NCBI GenBank assembly: GCA_041874725.1
Contig: CP097466.1
Coordinates: 2,852,001-2,916,000 of the forward strand
Length of the DNA stretch: 64,000 nt
Origin: Duganella sp. BuS-21
GTDB lineage: Bacteria; Pseudomonadota; Gammaproteobacteria; Burkholderiales; Burkholderiaceae_D
Direction of reading: 5' to 3'
This document shows, piece after piece, positions 6,001 through 18,132 of this stretch. Both the position numbers and the translations under genes were made by a program. The first letter of the stretch is position 1; each line of letters begins with the position of its first letter. The notes beneath the pieces are model-generated. The model was given only the letters and a program-made list of their open reading frames with translations, was not told the DNA's origin and made no database searches.

Positions 6001-6197
6001 ATGAGGTTTCCGGATCAGATGACGTGCTGGCGCTCGCGCTTAAGATCGATGAAGCCGTCAAACACTCCCGGCCCGATGGCTGGCGCGGCGTTCAGTCCAA
6101 GGAAAACGTAATCAAGGCGGCCTTGTATGCGATCTTGCCAGATGTGGACGAGGTCGAACGTATTTTTCTCATCATTCGACAGCAGAAGGAATATTGA
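3078..6197 (+). CDS. hsdR: Type I restriction endonuclease subunit HsdR
   Basis: This is a full-length 1039-aa motor/nuclease subunit. An Mrr-like PD-(D/E)xK nuclease lies near residues 130-152 (RRPDIVIYVNG then LELKNS). The superfamily 2 translocase follows: Walker A TQGSGKS near 275, motif II VFVDECHRTQSGK near 382, motif III FTGTPLL near 410 and motif VI QAICRTNRLDGG near 650. The C-terminal helical domain would contact the methylase core. The start ATG overlaps the hsdS stop, and the TGA overlaps a TTG start of the next gene. All motifs are intact and no frameshift is seen, so the restriction subunit looks functional. Confidence 0.96.
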   Translation: MTIGQPERATQNRVATLFSAELGYRTLGNWADRSNNSNVEVALLTTYLTRRGYSAAQIGRVLDRLRAEAGNPNRSLYDNNKAVYSLLRYGVQVQAAVGENTETVWLIDWNDPTLNDFAIAEEVTLHGNHERRPDIVIYVNGIAVGVLELKNSRVDIGEGIRQNLSNQQAAFNEWFFSTVQFIFAGNDSKGLKYGTIKTEEKYFLSWKEDEADNSRFKLDKYLLKMCNKTRLIELMHDFVLFDGGVKKLPRVHQYFGIKAAQAYVHRREGGILWHTQGSGKSIVMVLLAKWILENKPNARVVIVTDRDELDKQIEGVFITAGYPMTRAGSGRDLMARLGQATPRLLCSLVHKFGKKGVDDFEQFIKELETQPCPTVGEIFVFVDECHRTQSGKLHRTMKALMPNAVFVGFTGTPLLKRDKQTSLEVFGGYIHTYKFSEAVEDEVVLDLVYEARDIDQRLGSEERIDAWFDAKTKGLNDWQKAALREQWGTMQNVLSSKARMDRVVADIVFDFCVKPRLSNQRGNAILVASSIYEACKYFYLFQKTVFKGKCAVVTSYNPQAQNITLEDTGANTETDKQFIYNSYTALLQDVETLPGKSKTESYEDQAKKLFKEQPANMRLLVVVDKLLTGFDAPSCTYLYIDKSMQDHGLFQAICRTNRLDGGDKDFGYVVDYKDLFKKVENAIAVYTSELDRSAGGVDPDVLLQDRLSKGRERLDNALEAVALLCEPVASPQGELEHIHYFCGNTEIADDLKAHETQRVALYKAMVALVRAYANISDDLSRAGYGDADVERIKQAIDRYLKLREIIRNAADEKLDMKAYEADMRHLIDTYIEASEPRTISPFDGMPLLELIVKTGIASAINSLPAGLKGNKDAVAETIENNVRSKIIKEHLNDPAYYAKMSALLDEIIAARKAKAIEYEEYLKQVAELAKRVEAGQADDAPEQLNTPGRRALYNLLRQDASGPAALHVAESATHYEVSGSDDVLALALKIDEAVKHSRPDGWRGVQSKENVIKAALYAILPDVDEVERIFLIIRQQKEY

Positions 6198-6913
6198 CAG
6201 TGATGCAATTCAAACTGGGCGACATTGCCGTTGAAGTCGTGCAGAAGGACATCAAGAACCTCCACTTGAGCGTTCACCCCCCCGCTGGCAAGGTGCGCAT
6301 CGCTGCCCCTCTGCGCATGGACCTCGATACGATCCGTGTGTTTGCCATCACCAAGCTCGCCTGGATCAAAAACCAGCAGCAGAAGCTGCGCGAGCAAGAA
6401 CGTGAAACCCCGCGCGAATACCTCGACCGGGAGAGCCACTACGTTTGGGGCAAGCGTTATTTACTCCAACTGGTCGAGAAGGACGCGACACCGACCGTTG
6501 AGCTCAAACACAACAAGATGATTCTTCAGTTGCGGCCCGCAGCCAGCCATGAGAAAAAGCAGGAAGTGCTTGATGCGTGGTATCGCGAGCAGCTTAAAGA
6601 AGTCGTCCCGCCGCTGATTGACAAGTGGGAAAAGGTTGTAGGCGTGAAGACTGGAAAGTTCTTCGTGCAAAAGATGAAAACGAAATGGGGCAGTTGCAGC
6701 CCCGGACCCAAAAATATCCGCATCAACACCGACCTGGCCAAGAAGCCGTTGCAGTGCCTTGAATATATCGTCGTGCATGAACTCACGCATCTGCTGGAGC
6801 GGCACCACAACGACAATTTTACTGCGCTGATGGATGCCCACATGCCGCAGTGGCGGCAGTATCGCGAGATGCTGAATAGTTTGCCGCTGGCGCATCAAGA
6901 GTGGAGATATTGA
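6194..6913 (+). CDS. YgjP/SprT-like zinc metallopeptidase (DUF45 type), fifth gene of the R-M operon
   Basis: The product (239 aa from a TTG overlapping the hsdR stop; 236 aa from the in-frame ATG at 6203) has the zinc motif HELTH in YIVVHELTHLLERHH, with a further His shortly after. Upstream is the KWGSCS phrase typical of the YgjP-like metallopeptidase family. Members are frequently the last gene of type I R-M operons, but their substrate is unknown. The TTGA overlap with hsdR suggests translational coupling, so the operon has at least five genes. A role in processing or turnover of the R-M subunits is inference only. Confidence 0.87.
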   Translation: MTVMQFKLGDIAVEVVQKDIKNLHLSVHPPAGKVRIAAPLRMDLDTIRVFAITKLAWIKNQQQKLREQERETPREYLDRESHYVWGKRYLLQLVEKDATPTVELKHNKMILQLRPAASHEKKQEVLDAWYREQLKEVVPPLIDKWEKVVGVKTGKFFVQKMKTKWGSCSPGPKNIRINTDLAKKPLQCLEYIVVHELTHLLERHHNDNFTALMDAHMPQWRQYREMLNSLPLAHQEWRY

Positions 6914-7324: not shown

Positions 7325-10303
7325 ATGATGATTACGCGCGGATCCGAGTGGCATCGCTGGGAACCCCATATTCACGGACCTGGTACCGTGCTAAACAACC
7401 AGTTTGGAGGGGACGATTCCTGGGACCCCTATCTGGACGCCTTAGAGGCCTGCTCGCCGGTGATCGAGGCTCTTGCCGTGACCGACTACTACACTACGGA
7501 TACATATGAGGAAGTTGTCCGCCAAAAGGCCGCTGGTCGGTTACCCCAAGTCAAGCTCCTGTTCCCTAACATCGAGCTGCGACTCGACGTTGCCGCTAAG
7601 ACGGGCTTTGTGAACCTGCACCTCCTCGTCAGCCCACAGGATCCCGAGCATGTCGAGGAAATCAAGCGATTTCTTTCGCGATTGCAGTTCAACGCGTTCG
7701 ATGACAGATTTGACTGTACAAAATCGGACTTAATTCGCCTCGGGAAAGCTGCTAAGAGCTCGATAAAGGAGGATAGGCCTGCGCTCGCGCATGGGGCCAC
7801 TCAGTTTAAGGTCAACTTCGATTCACTTCGTAAGGCGTTCAAGGAGAGTGCCTGGGCGAAAAACAACATTTTGATCGCCATCGCTGGCGGAGAAGGTGAT
7901 GGTACATCCGGTGTGCGCCAGGCGGCTGACCAGACCATCAGGCAAGAACTTGAGAAATTCTCCCACGTCATATTCGCGAGCAGCGCAGCACAGCGAGAGT
8001 TTTGGCTGGGCAAGCGCATAGTCAGCGTCGAGCAGCTCCATGATAGATATGGCGGCTGCAAGCCGTGCCTGCATGGGAGCGATGCACACGACTTGGCGAC
8101 TATTGGACAGCCGGAGGATGACCGGTTTTCTTGGCTCAAGGGCGCATTAACCTTCGATGCCCTCCGGCAGGCATGCATCGATCCTGAAGGGCGTGCTTAT
8201 GTGGGGCGTGAGCCACCAAGGGGCGCGATGCCTTCGCAGGTGATATCCGACGTGCAAATCTTGGACGCCTCATGGGCAGTCACGAATTCGGTACCGCTGA
8301 ACCCAGGCTTGGTAGCGATCATCGGCGCGCGCGGCTCGGGCAAGACCGCGCTGGCAGACGTGATCGCAGCTGGATGCGACGCCATCTCCGAGGCAGCGTG
8401 GAATGTGGACGGCGACATCAGCCCGTCATTCTTAGTTCGTGCGCGGCCGCTGATCGGCGACGCGATGGCCGAACTCACATGGGGAGGAGGCGGAAAGTCA
8501 AGCTGTCACCTCGATGGTCGAGATGTTATCGATGTTTTGGCCTACCCTCGCGCGCGATACCTATCCCAACAATTCGTTGAGGAACTTTGCTCTTCAAAAG
8601 GAGCCTCGGAGGGGCTGGTACGGGAGATAGAGCGTGTGATTTTCGAGGCGCATGCAGCTAAGGGACAAGAGGGGGCATACAGCTTCGAGGAACTTCGCGA
8701 CCAAAAGACGGCTCGGTTCCGGCAAGCACGCCGCATGGAATCAGAGGCTATCGCGGCATCGTCAGACCGCATTGCGGATGAGCTTGAAAAGGAGGCGATC
8801 ATTGGTAGTCTGACTAACCAGGTTGCAGCTAAAGAGAAGTTGATTGCCGACTACACGCTGGATTTGGCAAAGCTCGTGGTCAAGGGAGCCGAAGCGCAGG
8901 TTCAGCGACATACCGATCTCACCGAAGCGGCTGAGGCGCTAACGACGCGTACAAATACGCTGGCCAGCCAGCGCAGAAGCTATGGGGCGTTGCAAGATGA
9001 AGTCAAGAACACGCGGGCGGCGAAGGCCCCGGAGATGCTGCGACAGGCAATCGCGCGTCATCCAAGTAGTGGCCTCAATCCCCAGCAGTGGAATGACTTT
9101 CTCCTTGTCTATCAAGGCAACGTCGACACGGCACTCAGCGGTTACATCGCGTGGGTAGACCAGGAGCTTGCGAACCTTAACGGCGCTATCCCAGCCGAGC
9201 GGGATCCAAATGTACCACTGATACCTGCGGACGCGGACTTAAAGACAATTCAACTTGCCGTGCTGAAAGCGGAGATGGCTCGGCTTGAAAAGCGCATAGG
9301 CGCAGATACTGTTATACGTAACCAGTACACGACGCTGTCAAAGAAGATATCGACCGAGAAAGCCGGCCTTCAAGCATTGAAGACGCGACTGGAAGACGCG
9401 AAGGGTGCGGCGGAGCGACGCAAGGTCTTACAGCAAGAACGGGATGCAGCCTATGGTCGGCTGTTTGAAGCGCTGGTCAAGGAACAGAACGCGCTGACCG
9501 AGCTGTATGCGCCGCTCATGGAGCGGCTTTCCTCCATGGACGGTACGTTGAAAAAGCTTAGCTTTAAAGTCTCGCGGACCGTTGATGTAGTAGCGTGGGC
9601 AAATATCGGTGAGGACAACTTGATTGATTGCCGCAAAGCCGGCGAATTCTACGGGCGCGGATCATTGGAAAAGCTGGTGCGTGCCAAACTCCAGCCGTCA
9701 TGGCAGGATGGCAGCGCCGAAGAGGTGCAAACGGCCATGAGCGAGTTTATCGGGACTCATTTCAAGGGGCTGCGGGCCCATGCGCCGCACGCTCCGGCCG
9801 AGCAGGTGGCCTTCAGAGATTGGTCAAAGCGCTTTGCGCATTGGATCTTTAGCACGGATCACATCTCGGTAAAGTACGAGATTCTGTATGACGGCATCGA
9901 CATACGAAAACTTTCGCCTGGTACTCGCGGCATTGTGCTTCTGCTTCTCTACCTAGCGTTGGATGATGCCGATGACCGACCGTTGATCATCGATCAACCT
10001 GAAGAGAACCTGGATCCGAAATCGGTCTTCGATGAGTTAGTTTCACTTTTCATTGCGGTCAAGTCCAAGCGCCAAGTAATCATGGTCACGCATAACGCAA
10101 ACTTGGTGATCAACACCGATGCGGACCAAATCATCGTGGCCAGCGCCGGCCCGCCTGAGGGGGGCGGGCTTCCGTCTTTTACGTATTCCGCTGGTGGTTT
10201 AGAAGACGCTGAAATCCGCAAGGTGGTCTGCGATATTCTCGAAGGAGGCGAAAAGGCGTACCGAGAGCGCGCGCGTCGATTACGAGTTCGCCTTGAGAGG
10301 TAG
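7325..10303 (+). CDS. TrlF-family protein: PHP phosphoesterase domain fused to an SMC-like ATPase
   Basis: The product is about 992 aa. The N-terminal third is a PHP-type metal-dependent phosphoesterase: the HxH motif in WEPHIHGPGT near residue 16, DYYTTDTY near 60 and the late HGSDAHDL near 252. Next comes an ABC/SMC-type ATPase with Walker A IGARGSGKTAL near 338, a long coiled coil (about 450-760), and a signature plus Walker B LSPGTRGIVLLLLY / PLIIDQPEENLD near 865-895, ending with the switch His in VTHNANL. This architecture is the TrlF family, often found in defence islands; its biochemical target is not known to me. The AGGAGG at 7318-7323 leaves almost no spacer to the ATG at 7325, so the ATG at 7328 may be the true start. 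It stands alone between two other defence modules. Confidence 0.8.
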   Translation: MMITRGSEWHRWEPHIHGPGTVLNNQFGGDDSWDPYLDALEACSPVIEALAVTDYYTTDTYEEVVRQKAAGRLPQVKLLFPNIELRLDVAAKTGFVNLHLLVSPQDPEHVEEIKRFLSRLQFNAFDDRFDCTKSDLIRLGKAAKSSIKEDRPALAHGATQFKVNFDSLRKAFKESAWAKNNILIAIAGGEGDGTSGVRQAADQTIRQELEKFSHVIFASSAAQREFWLGKRIVSVEQLHDRYGGCKPCLHGSDAHDLATIGQPEDDRFSWLKGALTFDALRQACIDPEGRAYVGREPPRGAMPSQVISDVQILDASWAVTNSVPLNPGLVAIIGARGSGKTALADVIAAGCDAISEAAWNVDGDISPSFLVRARPLIGDAMAELTWGGGGKSSCHLDGRDVIDVLAYPRARYLSQQFVEELCSSKGASEGLVREIERVIFEAHAAKGQEGAYSFEELRDQKTARFRQARRMESEAIAASSDRIADELEKEAIIGSLTNQVAAKEKLIADYTLDLAKLVVKGAEAQVQRHTDLTEAAEALTTRTNTLASQRRSYGALQDEVKNTRAAKAPEMLRQAIARHPSSGLNPQQWNDFLLVYQGNVDTALSGYIAWVDQELANLNGAIPAERDPNVPLIPADADLKTIQLAVLKAEMARLEKRIGADTVIRNQYTTLSKKISTEKAGLQALKTRLEDAKGAAERRKVLQQERDAAYGRLFEALVKEQNALTELYAPLMERLSSMDGTLKKLSFKVSRTVDVVAWANIGEDNLIDCRKAGEFYGRGSLEKLVRAKLQPSWQDGSAEEVQTAMSEFIGTHFKGLRAHAPHAPAEQVAFRDWSKRFAHWIFSTDHISVKYEILYDGIDIRKLSPGTRGIVLLLLYLALDDADDRPLIIDQPEENLDPKSVFDELVSLFIAVKSKRQVIMVTHNANLVINTDADQIIVASAGPPEGGGLPSFTYSAGGLEDAEIRKVVCDILEGGEKAYRERARRLRVRLER

Positions 10304-10727: not shown

Positions 10728-13700
10728 TTGGACATCGAAATCTGGGACGGCGGTCTACAAGAAGAAGAGATCGAAGCAATCGAGAAAATCAAGATCGCCT
10801 TCACGGACGTTCCTTCTGAGGGCAAGTCGCCTAGCCGGGGTGGTTCGCTACGGGATCAACTTCAAAGCAAGATTGCGCGTAATGGTATGTACCCTTGGAA
10901 GGGCTACGCGGGCTTCCGGTTTGTTGACGCCAAGGGCAAGGAGGGGGAGTTCGACCTAGTGATCGTTACGCACTGTAACGTCATTATTGTCGAATTGAAG
11001 GATTGGAACCATGCACCGGTCACGTCGCGCAATGACATCTGGTTCAAAGGTGATAAGAACATGGGGCGGTCGCCTGTCTCAGTCACCCGGAACAAGAAAT
11101 TTTTATTGGAAAATAAACTAAAGCGGCTTTCATCCCGATTTACCAATAAGAACTACGCCCCCCGCGTATATTTTTTCGTCGTCATGACCGGAAACGCGGA
11201 TTTCACTCGACTTCCGGAAGTGGATTTGCAGCATACCAAGTCTTTGACGGAATTCTTGAAGTTTTCGGACAAGGGGCACTTCAACGATTTCTTCCGTCCA
11301 CACCCCGATGCGCAAGTGCTGAATCAGGACTTTTCGATCTTCGATGAATTATTCCTAAGCTCTAATATCGGACCGAAGGCATTGAAAATCGGCGGCTATA
11401 GCGCGGTCGAGGAAATATTTGAGCACCCCAAACACATCTACAAGGAGTATTTGGCAACTTCCGAGCTTTCAAAAACCACCGGGGCGCTGCTCCGTGTCTG
11501 GAATTTCAAGAAAGTTGAAGGCAATAAGTCCTTTACTCCTCAGGGTCGGGCCGAGATTGTTTCGCGCGAGCGCGAGGTACTGCAGTTTATTAACCATCAA
11601 AACCGTGACCTGTATCACCATTGCCTCCGTTCGCTCACCAGTTTCGAGAAGGATGAAGTTACATCGCAGTACAGCGAAGTTTATGAGCTCCCACCGGGAC
11701 ACGTGAGGTTCAATGAATTCGTTGGCAAGTACGGGCCGGCGCTACACGCGACCGACCGGCTGAACCTGGCTAAGCTACTGCTTGCAAAATTTAGCGACCT
11801 GCACGAAATCAGGATTGCCCACCGCGACATCGCCGACCATAGCCTCTGGCTGTCGCCGTCCAAGGAAATAGCCCTTTCCAGCTTTATCTCGGCTTACCAC
11901 CAGCCGATCGGCACGGTTGGGGATTACCGCAGCAGTCTATCGGTTGGTGCCGTTGAGGTGAAGGAAATGCTCGACGGTGTGTCGTTGACTCCATTTCAGC
12001 AGGACGTTCATGCTCTCGGGCTCGTCTGTTGGCACCTGCTGAATGGGCAGCGAATGTCTCCCAAGAGCTTAGCGAGTGTCCAAGACGCCATGCTGGCAAG
12101 CAGCGAGTGGTATGCCGGCGTGTTGCTCAATGCCGTAACTGCAAAGTTCAAGGATGCGGAGACATTCTTCGATGCGCTAATGCGCGCCGAGCCCCAGAAA
12201 GAAATCGCTCCGACCTTTGATGAAAGTGAGTTGGACGTCTACCGCCGTCCGATCAATCACTCTCGTCAGTATCGGGAGGACGGCGATTTCCTGCGCGAGA
12301 CGACTGACAAGGAAGTCTACCTCTCAGGTGGCAAATTGGTTAAAGCCTGGCTGAACGTCGGGGGCGAAGGAAGCGACCCTGTCGTCAATTTCCGCGTGCT
12401 GTCGTTTTTAAAGCGGGTTGATAAACTTGCGGCCGTCAACCCAGTATACCTGGCCCGGATTCTCGAGTACGGCCTCGCATCCAAGTCGTCTAGTCTGTAT
12501 CTGGTGACAGATTTCATCGACGGAACGACTTGGGCAGAGGCAGTAGTCCAAGACGCAAAAAAAATGGACATCATTGGCAAACTGGCGTCTGCCGTCGAGC
12601 ACCTTCATGGGCTTGGAATTTCCCATGGCGACATCCATCCCGGCAATGTCATGCTCGGAGGAGAGGGCAGCGTTTACCTGATCGACGTCCCGGACTTCTC
12701 ACCTGACACGGCGGAGGTCAAAAACCAGCAGTACAGCCCTGAGCAGGTTGATGGGTGCTCGTCATTCCAGCGCGACATTTTCGCCGTGATTAAAATGTCC
12801 AGCGAGTTGCTTGGGATCGCGTGGGGGGAGGAATCCAACGCATACCCCGTGCTCGCCGGTGCAATTAGCGCGGAACTGGAAGATGTCGAGTTCGGCTTCA
12901 AAGACCTAGGCCGTTTCAAAAAGGCGCTAACGCGGGGCGCAGACGCAGAGGCACAGCAGCTTGTCGATGTTGCTGTGCCCAATGTCGACGGCATAATCAC
13001 GATCTTGCCCGACAACGGCCGCCTGTATGTTAAGGTCGAAGCATCCTTGAAAGACGCGGGCGAAGTGATGGTGACCTTTAGCGGTATTGGTGGGACGTTC
13101 TCGGCGTTCTACAACAAGGACCAGCGCTGCTTCTTGGGAGGATATCCGCCCCATGTACGTTCCAGCGTCCATTTCAGGGAAGCCCAGGAAAGCCAGCTCG
13201 AAATAGGTACCGCAATCCGCATCACGGCGGGTCGTCCTGCCCAACTATCCGAATTGTCTGAGCTTCTCCGCAATGACGAAGCGTTCGAACGGGCAATCGA
13301 AATACTCCAGGAATCGCAGCCCAAAGCCGTTGATGCTGAACTGAGCCAACAAGTTCAGGAAGCATTCGACCGAGCCGGAGATCCGCAGGACACGGAGAGT
13401 ACTGAACTTTCAGTCGAAATTTCGACGCCGGCACTGTGGCGGGCAATTCTTGACACGGAGACAGAATCCAGTCCGCATGTTGAGTTGAACGGGACGGCGT
13501 TAGCACCTACCGATGCGGATGGAGAACTCATCCTTCCGTACGAAGCGGACATCGACCCGCTGGGTTCATTCGCAAGCACGGACGAGGTCGAAGCACTCCT
13601 GATTGACCAAGATGGAAACGAGAAAAACCTCGGTGAGGTCTCACTCAAGAAATCCGCGCTGAACGAGGTGAGATTGACCAGGATCAGGTCTGCCGCCCGC

Positions 13701-15680
13701 AGCCTCGGTGATGGCGACACCATCTTCTTCCGGACTAAGCAGGATCGCGCATCCTACCGGAAGCGGAAAGTCGCCCTGGAAAGGCTGCTGGACCGGGAAG
13801 GAGTCGTGCGAGACCTACTTGACTTGTTCGACCCTGGGTGTCGAACGGCAGCGACGAGGTATGACATTGACGTCACCGACACGGATTTCGCAAGGTACGA
13901 CCGAGAAGACCAGCACGGAAACAAGATCAGCCTGAACGAGCAACAGCGCGAAGCTTTCAAGAAGCTGCTCAATTTTGGCCCGCTGTCCCTTTTGCAGGGG
14001 CCGCCTGGTACGGGAAAAACGGAGTTTATCGCCGCCTTCGTGCACTTCCTGGTCGAGAAACTGAATGTGAGACGTATTCTTCTAGTGAGTCAGTCTCATG
14101 AAGCTGTGAACACCGCAGCGGAACGCATCCGGAAGCACTGCGCAAGGCTCGGTACGTCGCTAGAAGTAGTAAGGTTCAGCAACCGAGAGGGCGCGGTATC
14201 CAATGGACTCAAAGATGTCTATTCCCATGCCATCACGGCTGAAAAGCGGGAATTATTCAATGCCGAGTACCGCTACCGCGTCGCGGCCCTTTCGGATGCG
14301 CTTGGGCTCGAGGCTGAGTTCATCTCGAAGGTGGTCGATGCTGAGCTGAAGCTGTTCAAGCAAATTGACCACCTTGAATCCTTGCTTGCGCGCCTCGCTG
14401 GCATTGACGACAAGGAAGACATTAAATCTCTCAAGATGATTGTGGCCGAGCTGGACGAGACCATCCGCGCGAAGCTATCGGCAGACTACGGTATCACCCT
14501 GCCGAGGGAATCCAAGCTCTCGGACGCTAAGACTATACTGCTGTCACAGTTTTGCGCAGAACACGGCGTGCGCCCTAACGAGGCGAGAAGAGTGCGCGCG
14601 CTGGCTAAGATTTCCGGGGATATGCGGGATGCCCTCTCAGCTGAGAGAGTCAACTGCGATGAGTTCTACGCGCGTTCAAGGCAGCTTGTCACGGGCACTT
14701 GCGTCGGCATTGGGCAGGGACACATCGGAATTCACGACAACGTTTATGACTTTGTGATTATCGACGAGGCAGCGCGCTCCATCTCCAGCGAACTGGCGAT
14801 CGCAATGCAATCTGCGAAGCGCGTGCTGTTGGTAGGTGACCACCTGCAGTTGCCGCCGCTGTATTCCGATGCACACAAGACGGCCCTTGCGCGACGCCTG
14901 GGCATCAATGATAAGAACACGGAACTTGATGTTGTACTGCGAAGCGACTTTGCGCGGGCATTCAATTCCGAATACGGCAGCCAAACCAGTGCCGCCCTGC
15001 TGACCCAGTATCGCATGGCTCCGCCCATCGGCAACTTGGTGTCGACTACGTTCTACGGCGGGAAACTGTACAACGGTGCTCGGGCAATTCCCGACCTCTA
15101 CCAGCACTCGCCAGAAGCGCTCAGGTCAGCTGTAACTTGGCTCGACACCTCGCCGCTCGGAGGGCGTGCGTATCACCAGAGCGACCGCGGAGTAAGTATC
15201 TACAACCGGTGCGAAGCCGAGCAGGTCATCGAAGTCCTCAAACAGATTTCATTGAACGGCCCGTTCCTCGCCAGCCTTTGCGAGCTCAAGGATAAGGAGG
15301 ACGCACTTGTCGGCGTCATCTGCATGTATGCGGAACAAAAGCGGTTGATCCGGCAGAAGTTCAACCAAGAGATCTGGACAGATGGCTTCAAGGAACTGGT
15401 GAAGATCGATACTGTCGACAGTTACCAAGGCAAAGAGAACAGGATCATCATTCTGAGTCTTACACGTTCTGATAAAGCCCGGACGCCCGGCTTTCTGCGG
15501 ACGCCGAACCGGATCAATGTCGCGATGTCGCGCGCAATGGACAGGTTGCTAATTATCGGCAATGCCGACATGTGGAGCAATCATAACAAGGACAAGCCGC
15601 TCGGTCAGGTTGTTTCCTACATGAGCGGTATGGGCGAGGGAGCCGGATATCGGTTCGTGCCCGCACTAAAGAAGCACTAA
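10728..15680 (+). CDS. Large putative defence protein: NERD nuclease + two kinase-like domains + SF1 (Dna2/Upf1-type) helicase
   Basis: The product is 1650 aa from a TTG start (GAGG 11 bp upstream). Domains in order: a NERD nuclease-like domain (about 45-165) with GEFDLVIVTHCNVIIVELKD, the D...ExK pattern near residues 75-90; a degenerate protein-kinase domain (about 240-480) with HRDIADHSLW near 364 but no Asn and no DFG; a second kinase domain (about 515-720) keeping HGDIHPGN near 630 and an Asp in LIDVPD near 650; a linker; and an SF1 helicase with Walker A LQGPPGTGKTEF near 1090, motif II IIDEAARS near 1343, GDHLQLPP near 1370, QYRMAPP near 1427, VDSYQGKENRIIILSL near 1562 and NVAMSRA near 1596. 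Kinase plus COG1112-type helicase recalls MkoA of type I Mokosh, and NERD plus kinase recalls PglW of BREX type 2. The next gene begins 1 bp after the stop. Confidence 0.78.
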   Translation: MDIEIWDGGLQEEEIEAIEKIKIAFTDVPSEGKSPSRGGSLRDQLQSKIARNGMYPWKGYAGFRFVDAKGKEGEFDLVIVTHCNVIIVELKDWNHAPVTSRNDIWFKGDKNMGRSPVSVTRNKKFLLENKLKRLSSRFTNKNYAPRVYFFVVMTGNADFTRLPEVDLQHTKSLTEFLKFSDKGHFNDFFRPHPDAQVLNQDFSIFDELFLSSNIGPKALKIGGYSAVEEIFEHPKHIYKEYLATSELSKTTGALLRVWNFKKVEGNKSFTPQGRAEIVSREREVLQFINHQNRDLYHHCLRSLTSFEKDEVTSQYSEVYELPPGHVRFNEFVGKYGPALHATDRLNLAKLLLAKFSDLHEIRIAHRDIADHSLWLSPSKEIALSSFISAYHQPIGTVGDYRSSLSVGAVEVKEMLDGVSLTPFQQDVHALGLVCWHLLNGQRMSPKSLASVQDAMLASSEWYAGVLLNAVTAKFKDAETFFDALMRAEPQKEIAPTFDESELDVYRRPINHSRQYREDGDFLRETTDKEVYLSGGKLVKAWLNVGGEGSDPVVNFRVLSFLKRVDKLAAVNPVYLARILEYGLASKSSSLYLVTDFIDGTTWAEAVVQDAKKMDIIGKLASAVEHLHGLGISHGDIHPGNVMLGGEGSVYLIDVPDFSPDTAEVKNQQYSPEQVDGCSSFQRDIFAVIKMSSELLGIAWGEESNAYPVLAGAISAELEDVEFGFKDLGRFKKALTRGADAEAQQLVDVAVPNVDGIITILPDNGRLYVKVEASLKDAGEVMVTFSGIGGTFSAFYNKDQRCFLGGYPPHVRSSVHFREAQESQLEIGTAIRITAGRPAQLSELSELLRNDEAFERAIEILQESQPKAVDAELSQQVQEAFDRAGDPQDTESTELSVEISTPALWRAILDTETESSPHVELNGTALAPTDADGELILPYEADIDPLGSFASTDEVEALLIDQDGNEKNLGEVSLKKSALNEVRLTRIRSAARSLGDGDTIFFRTKQDRASYRKRKVALERLLDREGVVRDLLDLFDPGCRTAATRYDIDVTDTDFARYDREDQHGNKISLNEQQREAFKKLLNFGPLSLLQGPPGTGKTEFIAAFVHFLVEKLNVRRILLVSQSHEAVNTAAERIRKHCARLGTSLEVVRFSNREGAVSNGLKDVYSHAITAEKRELFNAEYRYRVAALSDALGLEAEFISKVVDAELKLFKQIDHLESLLARLAGIDDKEDIKSLKMIVAELDETIRAKLSADYGITLPRESKLSDAKTILLSQFCAEHGVRPNEARRVRALAKISGDMRDALSAERVNCDEFYARSRQLVTGTCVGIGQGHIGIHDNVYDFVIIDEAARSISSELAIAMQSAKRVLLVGDHLQLPPLYSDAHKTALARRLGINDKNTELDVVLRSDFARAFNSEYGSQTSAALLTQYRMAPPIGNLVSTTFYGGKLYNGARAIPDLYQHSPEALRSAVTWLDTSPLGGRAYHQSDRGVSIYNRCEAEQVIEVLKQISLNGPFLASLCELKDKEDALVGVICMYAEQKRLIRQKFNQEIWTDGFKELVKIDTVDSYQGKENRIIILSLTRSDKARTPGFLRTPNRINVAMSRAMDRLLIIGNADMWSNHNKDKPLGQVVSYMSGMGEGAGYRFVPALKKH

Positions 15681-15681
15681 G

Positions 15682-17127
15682 GTGGCCACATTGGAAAACA
15701 AAACGACTTATTGTGAGATAGATTTTCTGTTGCCGGCCCAGCGCTTCAGCATCAGTTTTTCGTACATCACCCAGAAAGGCTTACCCTTCGTCCGCGAGTT
15801 CGTCCTGCGCCTGCTCCATATGGCACCGATGACGAAATCGCAGCTTGCCACTTACTTCGGGTTCAGCCGCAACGAAACCGAGGAAGCAATTGCCGATCTG
15901 GTTGACCGGGGAGAGCTAACGCTGTCCGACAGCGGCCGGTTGATGCTTACCGAGAAAGCCGCCGGGTATTTCAACGACATTGGAGAGGCACCACGCCTAT
16001 CCCAACTCCAAGACAGTGGAGCTTTCCTAGCCTTCGATCTGGCAACCTTTACTTGCCTCGGCAAAGACATCCCCCCAGATAAATGGAAGAATGGAATACC
16101 CATCCGGGTGGATGACGAGAACGCGTCAAGAAGCGAGACACTGGCAGAAAAACACTTTCAACGGCAGTTCCATGACATTCTGGATAAGGGGCTGCTTTCA
16201 AAGTCCCTAGTGCAGGACGAGAAAGATTCACTGACCGTGTACACGGTAAATTCGGTCATCAAGATCCGTCAGATGCCGTTCAGGCTTACCGTAAGGTTTC
16301 AGTTGGACGAGGAGGGCCGAAGCGTGGAACGCGAAGACTTCGAGTTGCTTAATAGCTCCGACCAAGTCCACGAAAAAATCACCGTGGAACTTGATCGCCT
16401 GACGCGGCCGAGCAATGTGATGGAAATTGCCAAGGCCATGCTTGAAATTGGGGACGGCGACACGCTCAAGTTGTTCGATTCGAAAAGCAATGCTCTCAAC
16501 CTGCAGTTCCTAGATGATCTCAGGCGGCTTGAGGAAAACAGCGGCAAGCAAAGGACCACATTTGTTGGCCCGATCTATTCGGCCGCGAACTGGGATCTGC
16601 TGCAAAAAGTCTTGGCGCCTATGCTCGCATCTCGAATCAAGAGCAAAGCGGATGCAGGGCAGCCTCGGTTCCTATGGCTGGCACCGAGCGATACGTATTG
16701 GTGCAAAAGCGCACGGCTGTCGGTTGCCCTGAGCGACTTTCTTAACAAGGCAAGCACGAAAGAGAAAAAACTCTATTCGCCCATAGTCTATTTGCCAGTC
16801 TCGGGGAAGGATGACCGAAGGACCGCCAGGCAGTGGGAACATGAGCTTGACCTACATGTGGCTAAGGCGTACGGGCTGGTCGAGGGTTTCCTTGGCGGCA
16901 ATGTAGAGATTTTGCACTTCGATGAGGAGTTTGTCGCTGTCGTGTATCACTTCTCGGTTCCCTCGGTTTACCCGGTGACCTTGCCACTCGGGTTCATGAG
17001 CACCGATAAACAGGTGGTTTCGGAAATAGGTCGCCTCGTCCAGGCGCATGTGGAGGGGAGTGCTGGGTATGAGCGGAAGAATGATTGCGGCCCAATAGCT
17101 AGACTTGGCCGGAGTGAAAAAAATTAA
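15682..17127 (+). CDS. Winged-helix protein of unknown function, partner of the NERD/kinase/helicase protein
   Basis: The GTG start lies 1 bp after the preceding TAA, so the two genes form one unit. The 481-aa product has an N-terminal winged-helix-like segment (about 28-90: VREFVLRLLHMAPMTKSQLA, then FSRNETEEAIADLVDRGELT), a middle beta-rich part, and a C-terminal alpha/beta part (about 290-450) starting TTFVGPIYSAANWDLLQKVL. The C-terminal layout could be a phospholipase-D-like fold, as expected if this were MkoB of a Mokosh system. I see no HxKxxxxD motif, so nuclease activity is not supported by sequence. No signal peptide or membrane segment is present. I do not recognise the protein with certainty. 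Confidence 0.75.
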   Translation: MATLENKTTYCEIDFLLPAQRFSISFSYITQKGLPFVREFVLRLLHMAPMTKSQLATYFGFSRNETEEAIADLVDRGELTLSDSGRLMLTEKAAGYFNDIGEAPRLSQLQDSGAFLAFDLATFTCLGKDIPPDKWKNGIPIRVDDENASRSETLAEKHFQRQFHDILDKGLLSKSLVQDEKDSLTVYTVNSVIKIRQMPFRLTVRFQLDEEGRSVEREDFELLNSSDQVHEKITVELDRLTRPSNVMEIAKAMLEIGDGDTLKLFDSKSNALNLQFLDDLRRLEENSGKQRTTFVGPIYSAANWDLLQKVLAPMLASRIKSKADAGQPRFLWLAPSDTYWCKSARLSVALSDFLNKASTKEKKLYSPIVYLPVSGKDDRRTARQWEHELDLHVAKAYGLVEGFLGGNVEILHFDEEFVAVVYHFSVPSVYPVTLPLGFMSTDKQVVSEIGRLVQAHVEGSAGYERKNDCGPIARLGRSEKN

Positions 17128-18039: not shown

Positions 18040-18132
18040 GGAAACGTGGCCGAGTGGCCGAAGGCACATCCCTGCTAAGGATGCATACGGCTTATACCTG
18101 TATCGTGGGTTCGAATCCCACCGTTTCCGCCA
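18040..18132 (+). tRNA. tRNA-Ser (anticodon GCU)
   Basis: The acceptor stem pairs GGAAACG (18040-18046) with CGTTTCC (18122-18128), followed by G and an encoded CCA (18130-18132). The anticodon GCT is at 18074-18076 within the stem CATCC...GGATG. A long variable arm typical of serine tRNAs and a T-arm with GTTCGAATC are present. It decodes AGC/AGU. The gene is intact and is flanked on both sides by copies of a repeat that ends in a near match to its own 3' end. Confidence 0.96.

Follow-up and report, generated by a model that had tools for sequence, protein, structure and literature searches.

The question raised by this locus is whether two adjacent genes of Duganella sp. BuS-21 form a new anti-phage system or a known one in an unfamiliar form. 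The genes lie in the window, by which the whole 64,000-nucleotide stretch of DNA analysed is meant (contig CP097466.1, positions 2,852,001 to 2,916,000), and both are encoded on the plus strand: mkoA (10728..15680) starts with TTG and encodes a protein of 1650 amino acids (aa) with the order NERD - pseudokinase - kinase - middle region - superfamily 1 (SF1) helicase of the Upf1/Dna2 type, and mkoB (15682..17127) starts with GTG and encodes a protein of 481 aa. An initial annotation of the window had described the pair as a defence system, either a candidate new one or a diverged Mokosh, a system reportedly described by Millman et al. in 2022. The two open reading frames and their 1-bp spacing were borne out: a single base separates the mkoA stop from the mkoB start, both frames are unbroken, and the TTG start of mkoA is credible because close homologs align from residue 1.

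Full-length matches to curated Mokosh type I models

Both proteins were matched almost end to end by PADLOC models, MkoA by PDLC03921 with 2038.9 bits (residues 1-1647 on model positions 1-1601 of 1607) and MkoB by PDLC03923 with 431.9 bits (residues 4-472 on model positions 4-451 of 454). In PADLOC, the runner-up for MkoA was its second model, at 427.5 bits, and that for MkoB its second model, at 45.9 bits over residues 16-251; in the model searches of both proteins, no other curated system was matched better over the full length. None of the NCBIfam families listed (25 of 26) reached its cut-off for the 1650-aa protein, and the 481-aa protein was without any match there and without any Pfam family at its cut-off. 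The arrangement is also shared by related loci, since genome contigs scanned with an alignment of MkoB yielded 19 loci, all of which (19/19) have an MkoA homolog directly upstream on the same strand; the adjacency that the initial annotation had proposed to survey thus held throughout. When compared with the long-MkoA form of Mokosh type I (PDLC03921 plus PDLC03923), the window pair has the same full-length matches, gene order, strand and NERD, kinase and SF1 helicase domains, and no distinguishing feature was found.

We put at roughly 0.8 the probability that the pair is an anti-phage system, namely the long-MkoA, NERD-bearing form of what PADLOC curates as type I Mokosh. As judged by sequence comparison, it is a member of this family, is organized as an operon, has intact NERD, second-kinase and helicase motifs, and encodes an MkoB without the HKD motif (HxKxxxxD). 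Of the two options raised before, the curated MkoA and MkoB matches therefore support a defence system of the Mokosh kind, and the idea of a candidate new system has to be given up in view of the full-length matches to both proteins and the adjacency in 19/19 loci; placement of both proteins in MkoA/MkoB by hidden Markov models, the outcome named in advance as contrary to novelty, is what PDLC03921 and PDLC03923 gave. The objection that a NERD domain and tandem kinases do not fit Mokosh fell as well: the 1607-position MkoA model spans the whole architecture, and a review (PMC10952713) tabulates the NERD family PF08378 for both Mokosh type I and Nhi-like.

Assignment to Mokosh type II, in which a single MkoC joins helicase and phospholipase D (PLD) domains, was tried and rejected, as the MkoC model reached 112.3 bits (best of three stretches, 1485-1631) and two genes are present here.

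Conserved residues in the domains of MkoA

Residues were compared across 24 long-form pairs, namely the window, 12 of the 19 scan loci, L080-L083 and 7 of 17 annotated regions, and across a short-form set of 8 MkoB and 9 MkoA proteins taken from 2 loci of another scan, 6 annotated regions and L099 (MkoA only). Loci L051, L052, L055, L057, L058 and L062 (MkoA broken, short or cut), L068 (MkoB cut), L093, L095 and L098 (broken or short) and L079 (apparently the same record as L066) were left out; the MkoA of L089 is annotated from a late start and its N-terminus is missing. All sets were collected as sequences similar to MkoB queries rather than drawn at random, the annotated regions being part of the database matches. 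At E up to 0.001, PDLC03922 was found in 142 of 274 genomes, and strict limits were used later because most of the matches listed fall on its PLD part.

The domains previously recognized in the 1650-aa protein were all recovered by Pfam and alignment, each on the plus strand. The NERD nuclease-like domain (10884..11171; Pfam PF08378, 35.7 bits, residues 53-148) carries E74, D76, E89 and K91, a set of the PD-(D/E)xK type that is kept in 23 of the 24 aligned rows, the remaining row (L080) being a gap. The first kinase (11400..12167, approximate limits) is a predicted pseudokinase: its HRD, at residues 365-367 in the window, keeps His and Asp in 24/24 long-form proteins, and the position of the DFG Asp is occupied by Ser, as in the window, in 23 of them and by Thr in one. 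The second kinase (12285..12917, approximate limits; Pfam Pkinase, residues 581-653) is predicted to be active, with HGDIHPGN at residues 633-640 and a following Asp; across the long form, the catalytic D635 is present in 23/24, the later D653 in 24/24 and the Lys K539 in 23/24. The SF1 helicase core (13932..15566) is complete, with AAA_11 (PF13086, 122.6 bits, residues 1069-1378) and AAA_12 (PF13087, 140.1 bits, residues 1405-1613), and its best solved relatives are NAM7/Upf1, Sen1 and Dna2. The Upf1-like (COG1112) SF1 helicase and the Ser/Thr kinase domain by which MkoA is recognized are both present, as judged by Pfam and, for the helicase, by the nearest solved relatives.

A decaying, non-functional copy would be in keeping with the broken or split MkoA seen in 5 of the 19 related loci and in L080, but the window frames are intact and the examined catalytic residues of NERD, kinase 2 and helicase are in place, which makes decay very unlikely here. 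Of the 19 loci, 13 have MkoA as one long frame (1650-1659 aa); in L051 it is cut by a contig end, and in the remaining 5 it is split or short. A split or shortened MkoA next to an intact MkoB was observed in L052, L055, L057, L058, L062 and L080, and may reflect decay, a natural splitting of the gene or errors of sequencing. In L096 (730-1347) and L093 (81-740), a long-form MkoA is preceded by a separate small gene for NERD; in L093, an insertion sequence element stands between this gene and the MkoA, which is shorter there.

Resemblance of the N-terminal half to PglW

The likeness to PglW noted earlier is real. According to the excerpts of PMC12839542 and PMC10853773, PglW of BREX type 2 and some DndF proteins begin with a NERD domain, an inactive kinase and an active kinase, the order also found in MkoA. 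The PADLOC PglW model matched residues 56-442 with 81.6 bits, and the NCBIfam PglW family NF033442 matched residues 56-441 with 73.4 bits. That the pair might be a component of a BREX type 2 or Dnd-like system is barely credible, however, and membership was rejected: the NF033442 score is far below the cut-off of 990 and confined to the N-terminal part, the helicase half matches MkoA, the full-length MkoA match contradicts such an assignment, and no other BREX or DndFGH model was found for the 8 window proteins scanned, among the best 25 families per protein. The C-terminal halves differ accordingly, being a helicase in MkoA and, as given in the excerpt of PMC12839542, winged helices plus an inactive ATPase domain in PglW.

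A putatively PLD-like MkoB without the HKD motif

The winged helix annotated in the 481-aa partner was located by structure comparison at about residues 31-102 (15772..15987, plus strand). The statement that this protein lacks HxKxxxxD was also correct and applies to the whole long form, as the motif is present in 0/24 MkoB proteins, window included. Among the 214 MkoB homologs in the database matches listed, it occurs in 2 (residues 122 and 375), and a bare HxK is found somewhere in 50. Since all 24 long-form MkoB proteins match PDLC03923 and yet have no HKD, this motif does not define the curated family.

Structure prediction of the C-terminal part, the proposed check for a PLD domain, gave a mixed answer. 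The model used, built from a wider alignment after a first try with a predicted local distance difference test (pLDDT) value of 60.7, had a pLDDT of 85.4 and was PLD-like; Foldseek matched it to PLD-superfamily chains at E 3.6e-05, with 7 chains at E up to 0.001, but the matches are weak, the best single-domain template modeling (TM) score being about 0.48 among the matches listed. The VIA-align rows spanned the winged helix alone and so neither support nor exclude a PLD fold, and with an E limit of 1, comparison of the MkoB profile with the sequences of solved structures produced 2 matches, the best at only 0.25. From the structure model, Foldseek and the motif scan, the C-terminal domain (16549..17055, approximate limits, plus strand) is predicted to have a PLD-like fold without the catalytic residues, and the presumed nuclease of mkoB looks inactive from its sequence.

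It is also conceivable that MkoB is an active, divergent PLD nuclease which uses other residues and acts as the effector, as in the textbook description. The predicted fold would agree with this, and E409 and H423 are invariant across the 24 members of the MkoB alignment (A5), either of which might serve such a role. We nevertheless regard it as improbable, given that HxKxxxxD is missing from 24/24 proteins and rare in the listed homologs, that Pfam PLDc_2 is found in none of the 24 (even at E up to 1, among 25 of 26 matching families listed), and that the structure match is itself weak.

Two forms within PADLOC type I

The comparisons indicate that PADLOC 'type I' contains two forms. Both have a gene for a Upf1-like helicase followed by one for a winged-helix protein, and a kinase-like domain in MkoA. 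The long form, to which the window belongs, combines a long MkoA (NERD, pseudokinase, kinase and helicase) with a short MkoB, whereas the short form (PDLC03920 plus PDLC03922) combines a short MkoA with an MkoB that bears PLD domains and HKD motifs. By Pfam, NERD was detected in 23/24 long-form and 0/9 short-form MkoA proteins, the long-form exception being L080, where NERD is encoded just upstream in another frame; conversely, PLDc_2 was detected in 8/8 short-form and 0/24 long-form MkoB proteins. By pattern, 7 of these 8 short-form proteins have two complete HKD motifs, and L077 has one. The single kinase-like domain of the short-form MkoA lacks the HRD Asp in 9/9 and has GFE instead of DFG in 9/9. 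A helicase tree of 34 rows separated the two forms by one branch with support 100/99; its sole outgroup being a very long branch, the tree is unrooted in effect and gives no order of age for the two forms. When the profiles of the MkoA groups were compared, the helicases aligned (long-form residues 991-1644, probability 100), and nothing was reported for the N-terminal parts.

These contrasts can be read as an exchange of catalytic parts, in which type I Mokosh exists either with an HKD-type PLD in MkoB or with a NERD - pseudokinase - kinase module in the style of PglW and DndF that was moved onto MkoA, MkoB then being a catalytically dead PLD-like adaptor. We consider the case for this exchange evenly balanced, and no paper found in the open-access literature reports a NERD/HKD exchange. 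Alternatively, PADLOC type I may merge two distinct systems with nothing in common but the helicase and the winged-helix protein, in which case the long form would deserve its own name. The split in the helicase tree, the consistent difference in nuclease and kinase content across the compared sets and the fact that profile comparisons pair only helicase with helicase and winged helix with winged helix all speak for a merger, but gene order and partner types are alike, 22 of the 24 short MkoB proteins of the long form also match the other MkoB model (with their N-terminal part in the three rows with a printed range), and the name is a convention whose label already stands on both forms. A merger of separate systems is thus unlikely, though a serious contender.

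Several observations weigh against the reading of the pair as a type I Mokosh with NERD as its effector. Profile comparison of the two MkoB groups gave one alignment, restricted to the winged helix, and therefore does not support common descent of the C-terminal domains. The second kinase is not intact everywhere, as L086 is without catalytic loop residues, the catalytic Asp included, and L082 is without the Lys. In the excerpt of PMC11672841, the textbook wording puts a PLD nuclease in the second gene of type I, where no HKD was found here. The NERD domain may instead regulate the system or stand by as a second effector, which the available part of PMC12839542 proposes for PglW; the same part treats NERD as a DNase, and Mokosh is said to degrade viral transcripts in the excerpt of PMC11291487.

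The find in the window is in itself ordinary, and its remaining interest likely lies in the consistent exchange of nucleases and the likely loss of activity in long-form MkoB. If the nuclease was indeed exchanged, the label 'PLD nuclease' is wrong for the long form, and a sharp prediction follows: cleavage by long-form type I Mokosh should need NERD, and not MkoB. It matters for the description of Mokosh and for the question of how defence systems exchange effectors around a shared helicase/winged-helix core.

A possible mechanism for the long form

The mechanism of Mokosh is listed as unknown in the portion of PMC12926258 available. Since the mkoB nuclease looks inactive, cutting is probably done by MkoA, and NERD is taken as the effector because it is the only nuclease-like domain with intact residues in the long form; we infer that MkoB is a nucleic-acid-binding adaptor and NERD the nuclease. 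MkoB would bind nucleic acid through its winged helix and dock on the Upf1/Dna2-like helicase of MkoA, which would engage phage RNA or single-stranded DNA; this engagement, gated by the pseudokinase-kinase tandem, would release the NERD nuclease, and the PLD-like domain of MkoB would serve as a scaffold or ligand-binding domain rather than as a nuclease. As a whole this scheme is tentative, its chances being somewhat below even. Judging by the domains, the helicase would act as sensor, with the winged-helix protein as its partner, and the kinase tandem would control the effector.

A similar plan may be seen by analogy in the CnuH-CnuE pair of type II/III CoCoNuTs, which in the excerpt of PMC11090510 consists of a Upf1-like helicase and a nuclease-bearing winged-helix protein; according to the same excerpt, the nuclease is not always of one type and, in III-B, forms a fusion with the helicase. 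At the core of CoCoNuTs, however, this excerpt places a GTPase of the McrB type with a coiled-coil partner, and Pfam listed neither for the 8 window proteins scanned.

Genomic neighbourhood

The pair lies beside TrlF and type I restriction-modification (R-M) genes, as annotated: HsdS, HsdR and a TrlF family ATPase (7325-10303; 697.4 bits to NF045780) are encoded upstream, the last about 0.4 kb away. The integration scar proposed earlier received indirect support from a tRNA-Ser(gct) gene detected by ARAGORN (18040..18132, plus strand), at which the stretch with the pair may have integrated, and from a step in G+C content at about 20 kb, some 2 kb past this tRNA gene. Content is 51-58% across 1-20 kb of the window, the Mokosh pair included, and 61-70% beyond. 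Among 41 relatives, a strong MkoB match was found in the window's own genome only, the 24 other genomes of the genus being negative; this absence (24/24) and the low G+C content were counted in favour of the reading of the pair as a Mokosh probably acquired horizontally. The surrounding DNA is likely an integrated conjugative element with defence cargo.

Conjugation genes (TrbL, TrbI, VirB8 and TrbE-like) were observed within about 18 kb left of the window (L102, G000:C1:2834000-2852500). About 35 kb left of it, a 1059-aa SF1 helicase (L101:3092-6271) has partial MkoA and MkoC matches; it was rejected as a second Mokosh in this genome since the Mokosh models matched in part only, and no PLD, NERD or kinase family was found in it at E up to 1e-5. 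Within the window, a 341-aa KilA-N protein (791-1816) with 425.4 bits to the candidate defence family PDC-S22 is located among the type I R-M genes and overlaps a methyltransferase-like frame (117-974). A YgjP-like metallopeptidase (6194-6913, 202.6 bits) immediately follows hsdR with a 4-base overlap, and in an E. coli stretch (L084) an M48 family metallopeptidase likewise comes after hsdR.

Distribution of the system

A strong MkoB match (E up to 1e-12) was present in 6 of the 398 genomes of the phylum sample, the window's own included. In the class sample, PDLC03923 at E up to 0.001 was found in 14 of 274 genomes, of which the 13 besides the window's own are weak (best 5.5e-7), and no relative was found in viral_contigs. 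Translated search with the window MkoB matched 152 of 72,556 plasmid records. Among 5426 complete E. coli genomes, 309 contain a place that covers at least 80% of one long-form mkoA at the DNA level (query from L064). One of these was inspected: there mkoB follows mkoA, and the pair has type I R-M genes and darTG as neighbours in a stretch that carries an integrase. Long-form pairs were also observed in two records filed as phages (L085 and L086), whose contents, flanking integrases in L085 and a sulfate transporter and Tn21 resolvase in L086, suggest bacterial or mobile-element DNA.

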